Of a DNA stretch of 64,000 nucleotides, positions 29,731 through 38,602 are shown one piece after another. Made by a program: the position numbers and the translations under genes. Within the stretch, counting starts at the first letter, position 1, and every line of letters begins with the position of its first letter. This DNA comes from Meridianimaribacter flavus (GTDB lineage Bacteria; Bacteroidota; Bacteroidia; Flavobacteriales; Flavobacteriaceae), in assembly GCF_004366715.1 (NCBI RefSeq), contig NZ_SOQZ01000002.1:124001-188000 (forward strand), read 5' to 3'. The notes below the pieces were generated by a model that was given only the letters and a program-made list of their open reading frames with translations, was not told where the DNA came from and searched no databases.

Positions 29731-30327
29731 TTAGTGTCTTTGTTTAAGAATAGATACAATATCCTCTAACTTAAACCCTTTAGCCTGAAGGAGAATTAGA
29801 TAGTGAAACAACAAATCTGCACTTTCATTTAAAAATAAATCGTCATTATCATCCTTTGCTTCTATGACAACTTCAACAGCTTCCTCACCTACTTTTTGAG
29901 CAATTTTATTTATTCCTTTTTCAAAAAGTGCAACAACATAAGATTCTTTAGATTTGGAATTATGTTTCCTATCAGAAATAATATGTTCTAAACTAGACAA
30001 AAACCCATAAGTTTGTGAGTTATCTTCATCCCAACAAGTATCAGTTCCTTTATGGCAGGTAGGACCCAATGGCTCAACTTTTACAAGCAATGTATCATTA
30101 TCACAATCTACCTTTATATCTTTTAGCATTAGCATATTTCCACTTTCTTCTCCTTTAGTCCAAAGACGCTGCTTACTTCTACTAAAAAACGTCACTCGTT
30201 TTGTATCGATTGTTTTATTATACGCTTCTTCATTCATATAACCTAACATTAATACTGTTTTGGTTGTTACATCTTGAATGATAGCTGGTATTAATCCGTC
30301 GTTGTTTTTATTAAAATCTATGTTCAT
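29731..30327 (-). CDS. hisIE: HisIE: phosphoribosyl-AMP cyclohydrolase / phosphoribosyl-ATP diphosphatase, 198 aa
   Basis: The first 110 residues are the cyclohydrolase ([24 protein letters not shown], then the Cys/His zinc region [10 protein letters not shown] and [11 protein letters not shown]). The C-terminal 90 residues are the diphosphatase ([17 protein letters not shown]). It catalyses steps two and three of histidine synthesis. It is the last gene of the operon; its ATG overlaps the hisF stop (ATGA). No strong terminator is visible after it. Confidence 0.97.
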
Positions 30328-31079
30328 AACCTTACAGGAATATTTTGCTTTTGTAATTCTTTTTTAAGTTGAATAATTTCTATTTCTCCAAAATGGAATA
30401 CGCTTGCAGCCAAAGCAGCATCAGCTTTTCCTTTAGTAAATGCATCAGAAAAGTGTTGAATACTTCCTGCACCACCAGAGGCTATTATTGGAATGTTTAC
30501 CATTTTGGATAATCTTGCTAAGGCCTCATTTGCAAAACCATTTTTTGTTCCGTCATGATCCATAGAAGTAAACAATATTTCACCAGCACCTCGTTGTTCT
30601 ACTTCTTGAGCCCAATCAAACAAATTCAATTCTGTTTCAATTGTTCCTCCTGCTAGGTGTACTTTCCATTTATCATTTACTTGCTTCGCATCAATAGCAA
30701 CAACTATACATTGACTACCAAACTTTTCAGAAAGCTCATTAATAAGTTGAGGTCGCTTAACCGCAGATGAATTTACCGAAACTTTATCTGCTCCATTTTT
30801 CAATAATATACTTACATCTTCAATGGACGAAATACCACCACCTACCGTAAACGGAATATTAACTTGTTCAGCTACTTTAAGCACCATGTCTTTAGTGGTT
30901 TTTCTCGCTTCTTGAGTTGCTGAAATGTCTAAAAACACCAATTCATCAGCTCCATGAGTAGCATATTCTTTAGCTAACTCAACTGGATCTCCTGCATCAA
31001 TAAGGTTGACAAAATTGACACCTTTTACAGTTCTACCGTTTTTGATATCTAAACAAGGTACGATTCTTTTTGTTAGCAT
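30324..31079 (-). CDS. hisF: HisF: imidazole glycerol phosphate synthase cyclase subunit, 251 aa
   Basis: A (beta/alpha)8 barrel with the two catalytic Asp sites intact: [13 protein letters not shown] (D11) and [11 protein letters not shown] in the middle, plus the phosphate loops ASGGAGS and VGGGISS. It joins the glutamine amidotransferase HisH to form imidazole glycerol phosphate and AICAR. It lies 1 nt after hisA and overlaps hisIE by 4 nt. Confidence 0.98.
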
Positions 31080-31080
31080 T

Positions 31081-31812
31081 TTAAAACTGTTTTTCTAAGT
31101 CCTTTAAGTTTATAGCGCCTTCATAAAGTGCTTTTCCTATTATAACTGCTTCACAACCTAAATCTTCGAGTTTATTAATATCATCAATTGAGGTTACACC
31201 TCCTGAGGCGATTAGTTTAATAGATTGACTTTCGCTATTAGAACAGTTGTCAATAATTTTTTTATACAAATCAAACGAAGGACCTTCTAACATGCCATCT
31301 TTAGCAATATCAGTACAAACAACGTATTGTATTCCTTTCTTTTGGTACGTTTTGATAAAGGGAACTATTTCTAAACTACTTTGCTCCTGCCAACCATTGA
31401 TAGCTACTTTTTCGTTTTCACAATCGGCTCCTAATATGATTTTTGTTCCACCATATTTTTCAATCCATGTTTCAAAAGTTACACTGTCTTTTACAGCTAT
31501 ACTACCTCCTGTAATTTGTTTTGCACCAGAATTGAAAGCGATATGTAAGTCTTCATCAGATTTTAAACCACCTCCAAAATCTATTTTAAGACTAGTTTTA
31601 GAGGCAATAAGCTCCAAAACTTTATAGTTTACAATATGTTTTGCTTTTGCACCATCTAAATCTACTAAATGCAAATACTCAATACCTGCGCCTTCAAACT
31701 GTTTTGCAACTTCTAAAGGGTTTTCATTATATATTTTTTTGGTATTGTAATCGCCTTTAGTTAAGCGCACACATTTACCGTCTATGATATCTATTGCTGG
31801 AATTATCCTCAT
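31081..31812 (-). CDS. hisA: HisA: phosphoribosylformimino-5-aminoimidazole carboxamide ribotide isomerase, 243 aa
   Basis: The sequence starts [14 protein letters not shown] with the first catalytic Asp (D8), and the second is in [11 protein letters not shown]; the phosphate loops IDFGGGLKS and IASGGVTS are intact. It has the normal length for the family. A small palindromic repeat (31821-31836) lies in the 77-bp gap to hisH upstream. Confidence 0.97.
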
Positions 31813-31820
31813 GATTTCTT

Positions 31821-31836
31821 TCCTGCGAAAGCAGGA
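31821..31836. repeat. Small palindromic repeat in the hisH-hisA gap
   Basis: TCCTGC GAAA GCAGGA: a perfect 6-bp stem with a 4-nt loop that is clearly richer in GC than its surroundings. I recall this type of palindrome as a frequent intergenic element in flavobacterial genomes. It lies 9 nt upstream of the hisA start. Confidence 0.6.
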
Positions 31837-31889
31837 TTCTTTTTAATTAATAATTTATATTAAAATGCTGAAACTAGTTCAACATAACA

Positions 31890-32471
31890 TTATAGTTCTA
31901 TAAAATTCCTTAAAATTTGTTCTCCTGCTGTACTACTTTTTTCTGGGTGAAATTGTACGCCATAAAAGTTTTTATTTTGTAATGCAGAAGAATATGTCAA
32001 ACCATAATTAGTTTTGGCAATGGTTTGATTACATACTTCCGCAAAGTAACTATGAACAAGATACATATAGTCTTGCTCATTACTGTTTTTAAATAAAGGT
32101 GACTTCAAATCGGTAATGGAATTCCATCCCATTTGAGGTACTTTTAAAGCATCAGAAAACCGTTTTACACTAACATCAAATATACCTAAACCTTGAGTGT
32201 TACCTTCTTCTGTAAAATTGCAAAGCAATTGCATTCCTAAACAAATCCCTAAAACAGGTTGCTTTAACTCTGGAATTAAAAGATTAAGTTTTGATTTCTT
32301 CAACATATTCATTGCTGATGATGCTTCTCCTACTCCTGGAAAAATTACTCTGTCTGCTGATTTAATTTCTTCAGAATTATTTGTCAATATCGCTTCTACT
32401 CCTAACCTATTAAAAGCAAACTGAATACTCTTAATGTTTCCTGCTCCATAATCTATAATAGTTACTTTCAT
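31890..32471 (-). CDS. hisH: HisH: imidazole glycerol phosphate synthase glutaminase subunit, 193 aa
   Basis: A class I glutamine amidotransferase with GICLGMQLL (catalytic Cys) and FHPEKS (catalytic His and Glu); the start IIDYGAGNIKS is typical. It supplies ammonia to HisF. The gap of 47 nt to hisB upstream contains a palindromic repeat. Confidence 0.97.
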   Translation of the reverse strand: MKVTIIDYGAGNIKSIQFAFNRLGVEAILTNNSEEIKSADRVIFPGVGEASSAMNMLKKSKLNLLIPELKQPVLGICLGMQLLCNFTEEGNTQGLGIFDVSVKRFSDALKVPQMGWNSITDLKSPLFKNSNEQDYMYLVHSYFAEVCNQTIAKTNYGLTYSSALQNKNFYGVQFHPEKSSTAGEQILRNFIEL

Positions 32472-32500
32472 TTCTTATCGATATAATTTTTGTTGTACAA

Positions 32501-32521
32501 AATCACTCGAAGTGACATTTA
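32501..32521. repeat. Dispersed palindromic repeat, copy 1 (hisB-hisH junction)
   Basis: A 21-nt sequence with core TCACTCGAAGTGA (palindromic) that covers the hisB stop codon at its right end. It is 20/21 identical to 34792-34812, at the hisD-hisC junction. Confidence 0.65.
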
Positions 32522-33655
32522 CAAAACTCCTTTAGTTGATGGTAAAATCATTTTTTCTACATCTCGTTTTACTGCCATTTTAATAGCTTTAGCAAATGCC
32601 TTAAAAATGGCTTCAATTTTATGATGTTCGTTAGTACCTTCAGCTTTTATATTGAGATTGCATTTGGCACCATCAGTAAACGATTTAAAAAAGTGAAAGA
32701 ACATTTCGGTTGGCATTTTACCTATCATTTCTCTTTTAAAATCAGCATCCCAAACCAACCAATTTCGTCCTCCAAAGTCAATCGCAGCTTGAGCTAAACA
32801 GTCATCCATTGGCAAACAAAATCCGTAACGTTCCATTCCTAACTTATTGCTTAATGCTTTTGAAAACACTTCGCCTAAAGCAATTGCTGTATCTTCTATA
32901 GTGTGGTGTTCGTCAACTTCTAAATCACCATTGACTTTAATATCTAAATCAAGCTGACCATGTCTTGCAATTTGATCTAACATGTGGTCAAAAAATGCAA
33001 TTCCTGTATCAATATTACTTTTACCAGTTCCGTCAACATTAAGATTGATTGCTATTTGGGTTTCTTTAGTATTTCTTTCAATACTAGCCGAACGATCTTT
33101 AACTTTTAAGTATTGATAAATTGCTTTCCAATCTGTTGTTGTTATTGAGATACAATCTATAATACTCTGTAAAGATGTTTCAATTTCATTGGCTCCTAAA
33201 TTTGGGTCTTGAGATAAATAAATCCCTTTAGCTCCCAAGTTTTTTGCAAGTTCCATGTCAGTAATTCTGTCTCCAATAACAAACGAATTTTCTAGGTCAT
33301 ACGCATCAGAAAAATACTTAGTCAGTAAGCCTGCTCTAGGTTTACGAGTATCAGCGTTTTCTTCAGGAAATGTTTTATCAATATAAACTTCAGAAAAAAC
33401 AACACCTTCATTAGCAAATGCATTGATTATCTTGTTTTGAGCTGGCCAAAACGTGTCCTCAGGAAAAGAATTAGTCCCCAAACCATCTTGATTAGTAACC
33501 ATAACCAATTCGTAATCGAGCTCACTAGCTATTTTGCTCATATACTGAAATACCTTTGGATAGAACTCCAATTTCTCTAAACTATCCAATTGATAATCTA
33601 CAGGAGGCTCAAGTACCAACGTTCCATCTCTATCTATAAATAATACTTTTTTCAT
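32519..33655 (-). CDS. hisB: HisB: bifunctional histidinol phosphatase / imidazoleglycerol-phosphate dehydratase, 378 aa
   Basis: The N-terminal half is a HAD phosphatase (FIDRDGTLV with D8 and D10; later [11 protein letters not shown]), and the C-terminal half from about residue 185 is the dehydratase ([27 protein letters not shown] and later [11 protein letters not shown]). It performs steps six and eight of the pathway. Its ATG overlaps the hisC stop (ATGA). This fusion occurs in enteric bacteria and in many Bacteroidota. Confidence 0.97.
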
Positions 33656-34704
33656 TGGTCTAAATATTTTAATGTCTTAATTAATTTTTTATTTTCATCA
33701 GGTGTTCCAACTGTTATCCTTAAACAGTTTTTGCATAATGGTTGATTAGTTCTATTACGAACCACAATTCCTTCTGCAATTAATTGTCTATACCTTAAAT
33801 TGGCATCATCTACTTTCATCAAGATAAAATTTGCATCAGAAGGGTAAATTTTTCCTATAAATTTCAAATCCCCAAGTGCTTTTATCAATACTTCTCTTTC
33901 TGAAATTAAAGTCTTTACCTCTTGCTTCACTTTATTAATTTCTAATAATCGTTCAAGAGCTTTTTGTTGTGTTAATGCATTGACATTATAAGGCGGTTTT
34001 ATTTTGTTTAATATCGAAATTATAGCTTCTGAAGCATAACACACACCTAGTCTTATACCTGCTAATCCGTAAGCTTTAGAAAGTGTTTGAGTAACAATTA
34101 AATTAGGAAAATCCTTTAGTTTACTCAACCAACTCTCTTGATTTGAAAAATCAATGTAAGCTTCATCTATAACTACAATGCCATTAAACCCTTTAATTAA
34201 CTCTTCAATATTTTTCGCATTGAAACTATTAGCAGTAGGATTGTTAGGTGAGCACAAAAAAAGCAGTTTGGTATTTTCTTTTTGACCCTCTAAGATAGGT
34301 TTTACCTTAGGTTGAAATGTTTCATCTAAATTAATTTCAATAACCTTTACAGCATTGGTATTTGCCAACACTTCGTACATACCGTAAGTTGGAGGTAAAA
34401 CAATGACTTCATCTTTAGTTGGTTCACAAAATGCTCTAAAAATCAAATCGAGTATCTCGTCACTTCCATTTCCTAATAAAATCTGTGAACTTTTAACCTC
34501 TTTAATTTCTGATAGTTTTTCTTTTAAGCTGCTTTGTTGAGGATCAGGATACCTATTTAATCCGTTGTTAAAAGGATTCTCATTAGCATCTAGAAACATC
34601 ATGTCTTTATTGAACTCTTTAAACTCATCTCTTGCTGAAGAATATGGTTTTAAAGCCTTAACTGACGGTCTTACTATATTATTTATATTGAAGCGTGTTT
34701 TCAT
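33652..34704 (-). CDS. hisC: HisC: histidinol-phosphate aminotransferase, 350 aa
   Basis: A fold-type I PLP enzyme with FLDANENPF near the start, [31 protein letters not shown] and the PLP-binding Lys in [14 protein letters not shown]. The start is put at ATG 34704: the frame is open to 34776, but those 24 extra codons lie within a repeat element (34722-34812) and are unlike HisC. It overlaps hisB by 4 nt. Confidence 0.96.
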
Positions 34705-34721
34705 TTTATTGATACTTTGTC

Positions 34722-34812
34722 TGTTCGAGTGATTTTCCTGAAAATCGTATCGAGAACTTATTACATCTCGATACAATTCTTAATTCTTAAGAATCACTCG
34801 ATGTGACATTTA
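34722..34812. repeat. Composite palindromic element between hisD and hisC
   Basis: About 90 bp of nested inverted repeats: outer arms CGAGTGATT (34726-34734) and AATCACTCG (34792-34800); a central perfect 9-bp pair GTATCGAGA (34747-34755) / TCTCGATAC (34766-34774); and a small GATTTT/AAAATC hairpin. The right end (34792-34812) is the second copy of the 21-mer found at 32501-32521 and encodes the last HisD codons. Confidence 0.7.
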
Positions 34813-36095
34813 TAACTTAAATCTTTGAGTCTAATAGTAACCGCATTTTTGTGAGCTTGTAAACCTTCAGCCTCTGCCATTAACTCAATGCTTTGTCCTA
34901 TATTTTTTATACCTTCTTCACTAATTTTTTGAAACGTAATGCTCTTAGTAAAACTATCTAAATTAACTCCTGAATAGGATTTACTAAATCCATTTGTTGG
35001 CAAAGTATGGTTTGTTCCTGAAGCATAATCACCAGCACTTTCAGGTGTGTAATTACCAATAAATACAGAGCCTGCATTTATAATCCCATCAATAAAAAAG
35101 GCTTCGTCCTTTGCACACACAATAAAATGTTCTGGTGCATATTCATTAATTAACTCTAAAGCTTCAGCAATAGAATTCAGGTAAACAATTTTTGAATTTG
35201 AAATAGACTGTTCTGCAACTGATTTTCTTGGTAGAACTTCCAACTGCTTTTTAACTTCGTTCTCTACTTGTAAAGCAATTACTTTTGAAGTTGTCACTAA
35301 AATAACCTGACTATCTGTACCATGCTCTGCTTGACTCAATAGATCTGAAGCCACAAAAGCTGCATTAGCAGAATCATCAGCAAATACCAATAATTCACTT
35401 GGTCCTGCAGGCATATCAATTGCAACACCATATTTGGTAGCTAGTTGTTTTGCAACAGTAACAAATTGATTTCCTGGTCCGAATATTTTATAAACTTGCG
35501 GAATAGTTTCGGTTCCAAATGTTAAACTCGCTATTGCTTGAATACCTCCAACTTTATAAATTTTAGTTACACCACACAACTGAGCTGCATATAAAATTTC
35601 ATTAGCAATTTGTCCATTTTTATTTGGTGGTGAACATAAAATGATTTCTGTGCAACCAGCAATTTTAGCAGGAACTGCAAGCATTAAAACCGTTGAAAAC
35701 AATGGCGCTGTTCCTCCTGGAATGTATAAGCCTATTTTTTGAATTGCACGTTTTTCTTGCCAACAACGAACTCCTCTTGTGGTTTCTACGTCTACATTTT
35801 GGTTTTTTTGAGCTGTATGAAATGTTTCAATGTTAGCTTTAGCTAATTGAATGGCTTGTTTTAATTCTGAAGGTACACTTTCAACTGCTTTTTGAATTTC
35901 TAAGCTTGTAACCAAGCTACTTTTTAAATCTACTCCATCAAAAAGGGAAGTATATTTACTAACAGCTTTATCTCCATTACGCTTAACATCATCAAAAATT
36001 TGCGTTACAGTGTTTTCAATGTCGTCAATGGTTTTTGTTGGTCGTTGTAAAATTTCTGACCATTGTGCTTTACTTGGATTTATGATTGTTTCCAT
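34794..36095 (-). CDS. hisD: HisD: histidinol dehydrogenase, 433 aa
   Basis: The family motifs are intact: YIPGGTAPLFSTVLMLAVPAK, GPGNQFVTVAKQ, DMPAGPSELLV, AEHGTDSQ and EHFIVC, with the zinc-binding His/Glu residues. It oxidises histidinol to histidine in the last two steps. The C-terminus runs past the usual RLKDL end by about eight residues (SYKCHIE), which are encoded by the palindromic repeat. It begins 1 nt after the hisG stop. Confidence 0.97.
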   Translation of the reverse strand: METIINPSKAQWSEILQRPTKTIDDIENTVTQIFDDVKRNGDKAVSKYTSLFDGVDLKSSLVTSLEIQKAVESVPSELKQAIQLAKANIETFHTAQKNQNVDVETTRGVRCWQEKRAIQKIGLYIPGGTAPLFSTVLMLAVPAKIAGCTEIILCSPPNKNGQIANEILYAAQLCGVTKIYKVGGIQAIASLTFGTETIPQVYKIFGPGNQFVTVAKQLATKYGVAIDMPAGPSELLVFADDSANAAFVASDLLSQAEHGTDSQVILVTTSKVIALQVENEVKKQLEVLPRKSVAEQSISNSKIVYLNSIAEALELINEYAPEHFIVCAKDEAFFIDGIINAGSVFIGNYTPESAGDYASGTNHTLPTNGFSKSYSGVNLDSFTKSITFQKISEEGIKNIGQSIELMAEAEGLQAHKNAVTIRLKDLSYKCHIE

Positions 36096-36096
36096 A

Positions 36097-36954
36097 CTAT
36101 ACTACCATATTTTCTATTGGACAAACAAGGATACCTTCAGCTCCATTAGCTTTAAGTTCATCTATAATTTCCCAAAAGTCATTTTTATTGATTACTGAGT
36201 GTAGTGAGCTCCAACCTTCTTTTGCTAAAGGCATCACTGTAGGACTATTCATTCCTGGAAGAATGTTAATAATACTTTCTAAGTTTTTGTTAGGAGCATT
36301 TAGTAAGACATACTTGTTTTGTCTTCCTTTTAAAACCGATTTGATCCTGAATTGTAGCTTCTCTAATACCTGTTGTTTATCTTCACTAATATTAGGAGAC
36401 ACTGCTAAAACAGCTTCTGACTTTAAAAGCACTTCAACTTCTTTTAGGTTATTTTTAAACAAGGTACTTCCGCTGGAAACGATATCTACAATAGCATCGG
36501 CAAGTCCTATGTTTGGTGCAATTTCAACCGAACCATTTATTATATGTAATTCAGCATTTACATTGTTTGATTGTAAAAACCCATTAACAGTGTTTGGATA
36601 AGATGTTGCAATACGCTTGCCTTCTAAATCTTTAATTGTTGAATATTTGGTAGATTTTGGTACAGCTACCGAAACTTTACAGGTAGAAAACCCTAGTTTT
36701 TCAACTATGGAAATATCTTTACCTTTTTCAACCAATACGTTTTCTCCTATAATGGCAACATCAACCACACCATCTCTAAGGTATTGAGGGATATCGCCAT
36801 TTCTTAAATAAAAGACCTCTAAAGGGAAGTTTCTAGCCGAAGCTTTTAATTGGTCTTTGCCATTATCTATAGAAATCCCAACGTCTTTAAGGATTTTCAT
36901 AGAATCGTCGTGTAACCGACCTGATTTTTGAACTGCAATTTTTAATTTACTCAT
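36097..36954 (-). CDS. hisG: HisG: ATP phosphoribosyltransferase, long form, 285 aa
   Basis: The N-terminal MSKLKIAVQKSGRLHD, the middle VDVAIIGENVL and IVDIVSSGSTL, and a C-terminal regulatory domain of about 75 residues give the long, HisZ-independent form, which is inhibited by histidine. It catalyses the first committed step. It is the first structural gene of the operon, directly behind the attenuator. Confidence 0.97.
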   Translation of the reverse strand: MSKLKIAVQKSGRLHDDSMKILKDVGISIDNGKDQLKASARNFPLEVFYLRNGDIPQYLRDGVVDVAIIGENVLVEKGKDISIVEKLGFSTCKVSVAVPKSTKYSTIKDLEGKRIATSYPNTVNGFLQSNNVNAELHIINGSVEIAPNIGLADAIVDIVSSGSTLFKNNLKEVEVLLKSEAVLAVSPNISEDKQQVLEKLQFRIKSVLKGRQNKYVLLNAPNKNLESIINILPGMNSPTVMPLAKEGWSSLHSVINKNDFWEIIDELKANGAEGILVCPIENMVV

Positions 36955-37009
36955 TTTGGTTTTAATGTGTTTGAGTAAATCTTTTTTGGGAGATATTTTT
37001 ACGTTTGTA

Positions 37010-37041
37010 AAAACAAAAAACCGCTTGATTTACTCAAACGG
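37010..37041 (-). terminator. Attenuator terminator of the his operon
   Basis: On the minus strand CCGTTTGA and TCAAGCGG (37034-37041 and 37021-37028) form an 8-bp stem with one G-T pair and a 5-nt loop, followed by TTTTTTGTTTT (37010-37020). It lies 56 nt before the hisG start and after the His-rich leader peptide. Confidence 0.88.
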
Positions 37042-37105
37042 TTTTAAAAATATCTTGTTTTTATTCAATACATTTTCAGCTCGCTTGAGTGCAAGTATGA
37101 AAATG
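37032..37105 (-). promoter_or_regulatory. his attenuator: antiterminator and pause hairpin arms
   Basis: Arm 2 (37082-37090, ACTCAAGCG) lies in the last leader codons and pairs with arm 3 (37032-37040, CGTTTGAGT; one G-T pair), which overlaps the left side of the terminator stem. A second perfect pair, CATTTTCA (37098-37105) with TGAAAATG (37071-37078), encloses arm 2 and would hold it when no ribosome stalls. Stalling at the His codons should free arm 2 and let 2:3 form, allowing readthrough. Confidence 0.85.
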
Positions 37106-37132
37106 ATGATGATGTAATTGAATAAAATTCAT
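37076..37132 (-). CDS. hisL: his operon leader peptide, 18 aa
   Basis: MNFIQLHHHHFHTCTQAS: five His in six consecutive codons (residues 7-12), a signature of histidine attenuation leaders. The ATG at 37132 is preceded by an A-rich interval. The stop codon is 35 nt before the left arm of the terminator stem. Too short for standard ORF calling but strongly supported by composition, place and the surrounding RNA arms. Confidence 0.93.
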   Translation of the reverse strand: MNFIQLHHHHFHTCTQAS

Positions 37133-37150
37133 TTGTTGTTTTTGTCTATA

Positions 37151-37183
37151 CAAAGATTTAAAATAAAAATTTAAAAATCCAAA
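37151..37183 (-). promoter_or_regulatory. his operon promoter
   Basis: On the minus strand, AATCTTTG (37151-37158) is a one-mismatch TAnnTTTG, with TTTG at 37180-37183, 21 nt upstream, as -33. The transcript would start near 37145, a few nt before the leader ATG at 37132. Confidence 0.55.
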
Positions 37184-37234
37184 TCTTATAAGAGGTTTTA
37201 TGATTTTGTTAGTATTTTAAGTCTAAAATGCGAA

Positions 37235-37777
37235 TTAATCATATTTAGGGCATGTTGTCCAAGGATAAGCACATTGGTCCTTAAAACTTAACCAACCAGA
37301 CACTGATTTTTTGCCAACATTAAAACTCACTTTAGCCCATAAATCGCTAACTTCTATAATATTGACTTTTTGAAAATCGCTTATTTTATGGATTTTATTA
37401 GACGTTTTAGAGGCTAAATCATAAAGATAAACTTTGTTACCATCTTCATAGACATCAACAGAAACTAAAAATCCTGAACTTTTAACCCAATGATTTTCAT
37501 AGTCGTAATTTTTGTAAGCATCAGGTAAACGTTGTATGTTTTTGATTTTAAACCAACCGTAGCTACTTTCAATAATTGCTATTTTGTACCAAGAATATTT
37601 TGATTCGTTATTATATAAGGTGTCAACTATTTTACCGTCAATATCGTCATAAATGTATATTGGTTGCTTTGATTCTTTATCGTAGTAGGATTCAACAAAC
37701 TCTAGATAATGCGTTTGGTCATTATCTTGAGCAAATAGCGTGAAACTACACAATAGAAAAAGAATAAAACTTCTCAT
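37235..37777 (-). CDS. Secreted protein with SH3-like repeats, 180 aa
   Basis: A signal peptide (CSFTLFAQ) is followed by two segments that read like bacterial SH3 folds (PIYIYDDIDGKIVDTL, then SYGWFKIKNI; and VYLYDLASKT, then VSGWLSFKDQ). Two Cys near the end could form a disulphide. Bacterial SH3 domains often bind cell wall or proteins; nothing shows which here. It is transcribed towards the his leader and lies 9 nt after the prohibitin-like gene's stop. Confidence 0.65.
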   Translation of the reverse strand: MRSFILFLLCSFTLFAQDNDQTHYLEFVESYYDKESKQPIYIYDDIDGKIVDTLYNNESKYSWYKIAIIESSYGWFKIKNIQRLPDAYKNYDYENHWVKSSGFLVSVDVYEDGNKVYLYDLASKTSNKIHKISDFQKVNIIEVSDLWAKVSFNVGKKSVSGWLSFKDQCAYPWTTCPKYD

Positions 37778-37786
37778 TTAAAAGAC

Positions 37787-38602
37787 TTACTGATTTCCTA
37801 AAATAATTGGCATTCCAGAATCTCCTGAACCAATAACAATTACTTTACTATTTGGTGACTCTGATAGTTTAATAGTTGCTTCAATACCTTTGTCTTGAAG
37901 AATTTTATCGGTTAAGGAAGCACTTAAAATTTTATTTGCATCTGCTTTACCCTGAGCTTCAATAATTTGCCTTTCCGCCTCTTTTTCTGCAGTAACCAAT
38001 CTAAACTCGTACTCTAAAGACTCTTGTTCTTGCTTTAGTTTACGCTCAATAGCTTCTTTAATGGTTGGTGGTAATGTAACATCTCTAATTAAAACACTGT
38101 TTAATTGAATATATTGACTTTCAACAATTTTTTTGGTTTCTTCAAAAATTTCAGTTTGTATAGCATCTCTTTTTGTAGAATATAATTGCTCTGGAGTGTA
38201 ACGACCAACTACACTACGAGCTGCACTTCTAATTGCAGGCTGTAATACTCTACTTAAATAGTTTTCACCTTTTTCATTATGCAACTTGCCTAGGTTTCTT
38301 TCATCTGGTTCATATAAAACTGAAGCATCTAATTTAATATCCAACCCATTAGAAGAAAGTACCGACATCTTTTCAGGAATCTCTTGTTGGCGAGTTTCAT
38401 AGTCTATTACTCGATTCCATGGTGCTATTATATGAAAACCTGGGCCTAAAGGTGGTTTTTCTGAATCCACACCGTCTTTTAATGTTTCATACAACACAGC
38501 AGCATGTCCAGAATCTATTGTAACAGCTGATTTAGCCAAAATAATTATTAAAACCACCACTCCAATTATGATGGGTAGTCCTAGTCTAGGTAACTTATCC
38601 AT
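37787..38602 (-). CDS. Prohibitin/SPFH-domain protein, 271 aa
   Basis: One N-terminal membrane helix (IIIGVVVLIIIL) is followed by a prohibitin domain: DSGHAAVLYETLKDG, GPGFHIIAPWNRVIDYETRQQEIP, LQPAIRSAARSVVG and a long coiled coil EQESLEYEFRLVTAEKEAERQ. It belongs to the membrane-scaffold group that forms large ring assemblies and often limits proteolysis. The start is at ATG 38602. It follows the VWA gene by 12 nt, so co-transcription is likely. Confidence 0.9.
   Translation of the reverse strand: MDKLPRLGLPIIIGVVVLIIILAKSAVTIDSGHAAVLYETLKDGVDSEKPPLGPGFHIIAPWNRVIDYETRQQEIPEKMSVLSSNGLDIKLDASVLYEPDERNLGKLHNEKGENYLSRVLQPAIRSAARSVVGRYTPEQLYSTKRDAIQTEIFEETKKIVESQYIQLNSVLIRDVTLPPTIKEAIERKLKQEQESLEYEFRLVTAEKEAERQIIEAQGKADANKILSASLTDKILQDKGIEATIKLSESPNSKVIVIGSGDSGMPIILGNQ

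Follow-up and report, generated by a model that had tools for sequence, protein, structure and literature searches.

In the enteric his and trp leaders, the choice between antiterminator and terminator is made by the leader ribosome, depending on whether it stalls or finishes, and the Escherichia coli his leader carries seven consecutive His codons. In the trp leader of Bacillus subtilis, the TRAP protein acts as the sensor, and transcription attenuation is combined with a further structure close to the start codon. For the phylum considered here, a 2004 attenuator survey by Vitreschak and others reportedly mentions Bacteroidetes/Chlorobi. The closest described element precedes the same gene in the same family: in Flavobacterium psychrophilum, a 2021 study reports a structured 5' element before hisG that is conserved in other genera of Flavobacteriaceae, and speaks of "strong clues" for leader-peptide attenuation ahead of amino-acid operons (PMC9723704). 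The relevant passages of its main text, as distinct from its supplementary tables, describe neither the individual arms nor a fifth one, and report no co-variation. A literature search, with most subscription papers and all supplements beyond its reach, returned no description of a fifth arm. The kind of attenuator presented below is already known in flavobacteria, and its fifth arm appears to be a new part. A preliminary description of this locus had called attenuation less studied in Bacteroidota, which is fair, but main-text passages of the 2021 study indicate that the hisG case had already been reported.

The window, that is, the whole 64,000-nucleotide stretch of Meridianimaribacter flavus DNA that was analysed, holds a complete his operon on the minus strand, with all genes above the NCBIfam cut-offs in a profile search. 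The first gene, hisG (36097-36954, minus strand, TIGR00070), starts at 36954 and is followed by hisD, hisC, a bifunctional hisB, hisH, hisA, hisF and hisIE (29731-36095, minus strand), which match their NCBIfam models over the cut-offs. Ahead of hisG, the interval 36955-37158 (minus strand) contains, in order, a promoter-like box, a leader ORF, protector helices, an antiterminator, and a terminator with its U-tract. Two minus-strand genes of 180 and 271 amino acids precede the leader (37235-38602), neither with an NCBIfam match at E values up to 1e-10. The candidate -7 box AATCTTTG (37151-37158, minus strand) differs by one mismatch from TANNTTTG, a Bacteroidota -7 consensus, and it ends 18 nt 5' of the leader ATG. 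Among 301 leaders compared, a box resembling TANNTTTG and lying no more than 45 nt from the leader ATG is perfect in 137 and has one mismatch in 159, compared with 8 and 107, respectively, in the shuffled counterpart; its spacing to the ATG is most often 17-19 nt.

The leader ORF (37076-37132, minus strand) encodes the 18-residue peptide MNFIQLHHHHFHTCTQAS, and a His-rich leader of this sort is found ahead of hisG in 307 of the 317 unique upstream regions compared. Its control codons read HHHHFH (37097-37114, minus strand), so that five of six codons specify His, as the preliminary description had stated; the E. coli leader, by comparison, has an unbroken run of seven. Folding places two stacked protector helices around arm 2 (all on the minus strand). 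The outer helix is a perfect 11-bp pairing of 37117-37127, located in the leader ORF 5' of the His codons, with 37059-37069, and the inner 8-bp helix joins 37098-37105, within the His codons, to 37071-37078, which lies over the leader stop codon. The preliminary description had reported the perfect 8-bp pair correctly but overlooked the outer helix. Arm 2 (37082-37090), no more than 15 nt away from the leader stop codon, forms the 5' side of the antiterminator and pairs over 9 bp, including one G-U, with arm 3 (37032-37040), just as previously described. Arm 3 overlaps the 5' arm of the terminator (37034-37045), whose 3' arm, arm 4, occupies 37017-37028. The stem had been given as 8 bp; a terminator is indeed present, but it is longer, at 12 bp including an A-U end and one G-U. 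The 5-nt loop GTAAA (37029-37033) co-varies with a further arm treated below, and the U-rich tract TTTTTTGTTTTT (37009-37020) follows, its first four T doubling as stem closure. The U-tract and the order of the parts ahead of hisG were as reported. However, the attenuator had also been called complete, which does not hold, as that account lacked a fifth arm at 36969-36981 (minus strand).

Folding of the leader, which had been proposed as a check, was also favourable: the leader RNA is more stable than its shuffles (z of -6.6 for 191 nt and -6.3 for 140 nt), with none of 200 shuffles as stable in either case. An 11-bp A/T-rich inverted repeat flanks the terminator (37055-37045 with 37001-36991). 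Its 3' half, TAAAAATATCT, is absent from all other upstream regions compared, and the repeat was treated as not conserved.

Like the enterobacterial his leader (Rfam His_leader), this leader combines a His-rich peptide with mutually exclusive protector, antiterminator and terminator structures before hisG, whereas its protector of two stacked helices and its post-terminator arm set it apart. An Rfam search of the whole window gave no match at the gathering score, and within 36880-37260, at E values up to 10, the 20 weak matches did not include the enteric His leader family; these matches all fell below their own gathering scores and were rejected as chance. The earlier suggestion of unrelated sequences and a separate invention therefore stands only in its first part, in that no match to the enteric family was found. 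Independent origin is not established, because such leaders are short and fast-changing, and missing similarity does not demonstrate it.

Based on sequence and on analogy with the enteric systems, we consider it highly probable (roughly 85%) that this region is a ribosome-mediated attenuator controlling transcription of the his operon. It would belong to a type that is widespread ahead of hisG across the sampled class, and it has one additional, conserved part. The steps proposed here are drawn from the anatomy, its conservation and the established logic of enteric attenuators. When histidine is plentiful, the leader ribosome would reach the stop codon and cover arm 2, which lies close enough to that codon to be masked; arms 3 and 4 would then pair (3:4), and RNA polymerase would halt at the U-tract. 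When histidine is scarce, a ribosome stalled on the His codons would keep the protector open, since these codons overlap or lie next to the 5' strand of each helix, allowing arms 2 and 3 to pair (2:3) and the polymerase to read into hisG. If the leader is not translated, the protector helices would hold arm 2, so that the terminator forms. The preliminary description had invoked the logic of the enteric his operon, and the parts are found in the corresponding order in the window and recur before hisG across the class sampled.

For the comparison, 263 hisG loci were collected and reduced to 247 distinct upstream regions, to which 70 from one genus were added, giving 317; the sample was a chosen one, in which close relatives are over-represented and every genome has a hisG match. 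Fixed rules were applied, with a leader defined as at least three His in seven codons and a terminator called by our own score. Under these rules, a terminator is present in 305 of the 317 unique regions, and a His leader and terminator in the proper order in 301. By contrast, the same rules applied to upstream regions of other long ORFs in this genome returned 2 of 215, neither of them attenuator-like. Such hisG leaders also occur in further families of the class, with terminators of different sequence. That the complementarities arose by chance or are constitutive, with a plain terminator following an unrelated His-rich ORF, is exceedingly improbable given this excess over the controls, fold z-scores of about -6 and the co-variation described next.

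Swap tests, in which own arms were compared with arms from other leaders, were performed for each pairing on 150 leaders of the CGTTTGA type (the first 150 of a thinned list) and on 39 other leaders. In the CGTTTGA type, the protector pairing averaged -13.5 kcal/mol with own arms and -12.1 kcal/mol with swapped arms, and the antiterminator -12.9 and -12.2 kcal/mol, respectively. In the other leaders, the corresponding values were -12.6 and -9.9 kcal/mol for the protector and -12.9 and -10.0 kcal/mol for the antiterminator. In all four comparisons, no permutation out of 2000 was as favourable as the own arms, and the modest shift in the CGTTTGA type (0.7-1.4 kcal/mol) is explained by the likeness of its sequences. 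In addition, the antiterminator pairing spans at least 6 bp in 236 of 240 leaders and at least 8 bp in 176. The leader His codons and the arms are thus kept in relatives, as the preliminary description required of a genuine attenuator. This places histidine attenuation on solid comparative ground in a phylum for which few cases have been worked out; the attenuator itself is ordinary in kind, and it is the fifth arm that merits further attention.

Arm 5, GATTTACTCAAAC (36969-36981, minus strand), lies past the terminator, 14 nt 5' of the hisG ATG, and is the perfect complement of GTTTGAGTAAATC (37039-37027), which comprises most of the terminator 5' arm together with the loop. When scored against shuffled downstream sequence in 194 CGTTTGA-type leaders, the arm 5 duplex was significant at p<=0.01 in 126 and at p<=0.05 in 148, leaving 46 without a significant arm 5 (p>0.05); among 40 leaders with other terminators, the corresponding counts were 2 and 5. 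Across 59 distinct arm types, own arm 5 pairing (between arms 3 and 5, hereafter 3:5) averaged -10.3 kcal/mol compared with -7.5 kcal/mol (sd 0.24) for permuted arms, and none of 5000 permutations equalled the own mean. The 3:5 helix has all 13 of 13 pairs in 83 of the 143 leaders with a 5-nt loop. The loop bases, except the first, which belongs to the antiterminator, lie outside terminator and antiterminator pairing, and their co-variation therefore tests arm 5 largely alone. When only the stem half was used to place the arm 5 site, 315 of 475 loop cells were paired, compared with 238 (sd 8.7) when rows were shuffled (0 of 5000).

The same pairing was traced on a HisG protein tree covering 132 of 133 leaders, with the arm 5 site taken as the best 13-base site. 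This yielded 28 compensatory and 1 non-compensatory double changes, along with 42 single changes that break a pair, whereas sliding the register by 1-3 positions gave 3-7 compensatory and 5-9 non-compensatory changes. Stricter anchoring on six stem bases weakened the signal (16 compensatory changes, 9 not, and 118 single pair-breaking changes). Site picking is permissive and raises the own count: swapped arms reach at least 9 of 13 pairs in 126 of 133 leaders on average, and when at least 11 of 13 pairs are required, own arms succeed in 106 leaders and swapped arms in 71 (sd 3.8, highest 79). These comparisons indicate that the pairing of arm 5 with arm 3 and the loop is real and selected in many, though not all, of the leaders.

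Several individual leaders show variants of this arrangement. In one genome of another family (L260, 83% complete), arm 3, the loop and arm 5 are kept and the U-tract is absent, so that it resembles a leader reduced to its non-termination part; the one other genome of that family had no hisG match, and the case is given little weight. By eye, L008, L082, L128, L196 and leaders like them have a palindromic insert, CCCGTGAAAACGGGA in form, between the terminator and hisG at the expected position of arm 5. In L067, L078 and L084, whose hisG starts read ATGACAAAA or ATGACCAAG, arm 5 can, again by eye, form a local hairpin, for example GTTTGG-TTT-CCAAAC; its partner there is a copy of arm 3 directly 5' of it, which perhaps replaces pairing with the start.

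Once a transcript has run past the terminator, its arm 5 could pair with arm 3 and the terminator loop. Arm 5 is transcribed too late to influence termination, which implies a second control step acting on the escaped mRNA. Its end lies no more than 24 nt 5' of the hisG ATG in 110 of 126 clear cases, a proximity that points to translation. The likeliest role for arm 5, held tentatively, is to couple hisG translation to the state of arm 3, with arm 5 either released onto the start region or kept off it. Such an arrangement would be similar to the TRAP-controlled trp leader, in which attenuation is likewise joined by a further structure that forms close to the start codon of the readthrough mRNA; however, the sensor there is a protein and here the ribosome, and the translation step here is putative. 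Alternatively, arm 5 might shape only RNA stability or processing, with the 3:5 helix in the readthrough mRNA serving as an RNase site or as a 5' shield. The length of that helix, up to 13 bp, is in keeping with this idea, which we nevertheless regard as unlikely, as the closeness of arm 5 to the ATG fits an effect on initiation better.

For a link to translation, the hisG start region, TGAGTAAATT (36944-36953, minus strand), provides an alternative 10-bp partner of arm 5 (36981-36972) in the minimum-free-energy fold, with one G-U. At least six contiguous pairs between arm 5 and the start occur in 122 of 240 leaders, 120 of which are among the 179 that start ATGAGT, whereas none of the 16 leaders with an ATGACA start has more than three. 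Where codon 2 of hisG encodes Ser, it is AGT in 129 of 133 cases, whereas in the ORFs of this genome AGT makes up 25% of all Ser codons and 17 of 32 Ser at codon 2; this favours start pairing, yet the leaders are related, and the bias is no proof. A swap test of start pairing gave no selection signal: a median of 38% of foreign starts pair as well as the own start, and fewer than 10% do so in only 12 of 190 leaders. Start-codon pairing as the universal reason for arm 5 is ruled out by this failed test together with the ATGACA leaders.

Constrained folds bear on how the state of arm 3 might reach the start. The unpaired value of the start region was 0.57 with 3:4, 0.69-0.70 with 3:5 and 0.58-0.63 with 2:3, and in the window itself the start was open to 0.51 with 2:3 compared with 0.52 with 3:4. 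The opposite arrangement, in which arm 5 hides the hisG start, with 3:5 blocking initiation and 2:3 relieving it, has some appeal, since arm 5 sits just 5' of the ATG, a helix there could hinder the ribosome, and 2:3, the pairing expected in starvation, would relieve it directly. However, compared with 3:4, the 3:5 state opens the region from -12 to +12 by more than 0.1 in 128 of 240 leaders and closes it by as much in 4, a test biased partly by construction, as enforcing 3:5 takes arm 5 away from other pairings; hiding of the start thus appears improbable.

A more specific form of the link between arm 3 and translation, which we consider rather doubtful, is a two-level attenuator acting in cis. 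The terminator 5' arm and loop would imitate the hisG start, arm 5 would be complementary to both, and the mRNA would in effect remember the route by which it escaped. In leaked transcripts, the terminator hairpin would lock arm 3, and arm 5 would fold onto the AUG, silencing translation; in starvation transcripts, 2:3 would leave the loop bases as a toehold, and arm 5 would take arm 3, leaving the AUG free. Because 2:3 alone hardly frees the start, this cis model needs arm 5 to oust arm 2 from arm 3. Of 240 leaders, 234 have a 3:4 pairing that exceeds 3:5 in stability, and in just 100 of the 240 does 3:5 outcompete 2:3; in the window the displacement of arm 2 from arm 3 is unfavourable (-41.8 compared with -45.6).

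Arm 5 could also act in trans, with terminated leader RNA accumulating at high histidine and its loop pairing with arm 5 of the full-length hisG mRNA, lowering translation. The attenuator RNA rnTrpL of the Sinorhizobium trp leader, which acts on other mRNAs, provides a precedent. The loop would be exposed in the terminated RNA, and co-variation between loop and arm 5 fits cis and trans equally, because both partners lie at one locus. However, the co-variation runs well into the terminator stem (a 13-nt complement), which would be shut in the terminated RNA, and we see little likelihood in this explanation.

Other amino-acid leaders were found in the same genome. Upstream of a chorismate-binding enzyme gene (L267, G000:C1 near 877,232-877,984, minus strand), the leader MNTILNNTWWWMSRNSIFVN is accompanied by a strong terminator 46 nt before the gene, which, from the Trp run, is probably trpE; the arrangement is a predicted Trp attenuator without arm 5. 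A second leader, MKTNNYTYYNWFYFFFSEKSETLYV (L264, G000:C6 near 139,627), has a terminator just 5' of a prephenate dehydratase gene and is, by the same kind of prediction, a Phe/Tyr attenuator. The stretch between terminator and start measures just 14 nt in the Trp case and 6 nt in the Phe case, leaving no room for arm 5. Before ilvD, the leader MNRQIINIISIIIVVIISHR (L265 and L360, G000:C6 near 96,000) is followed by a strong terminator-like hairpin and is a predicted Ile/Val attenuator. Like the his leader, the Trp, Phe/Tyr and Ile/Val leaders all have a terminator-like hairpin after the leader or at its end.
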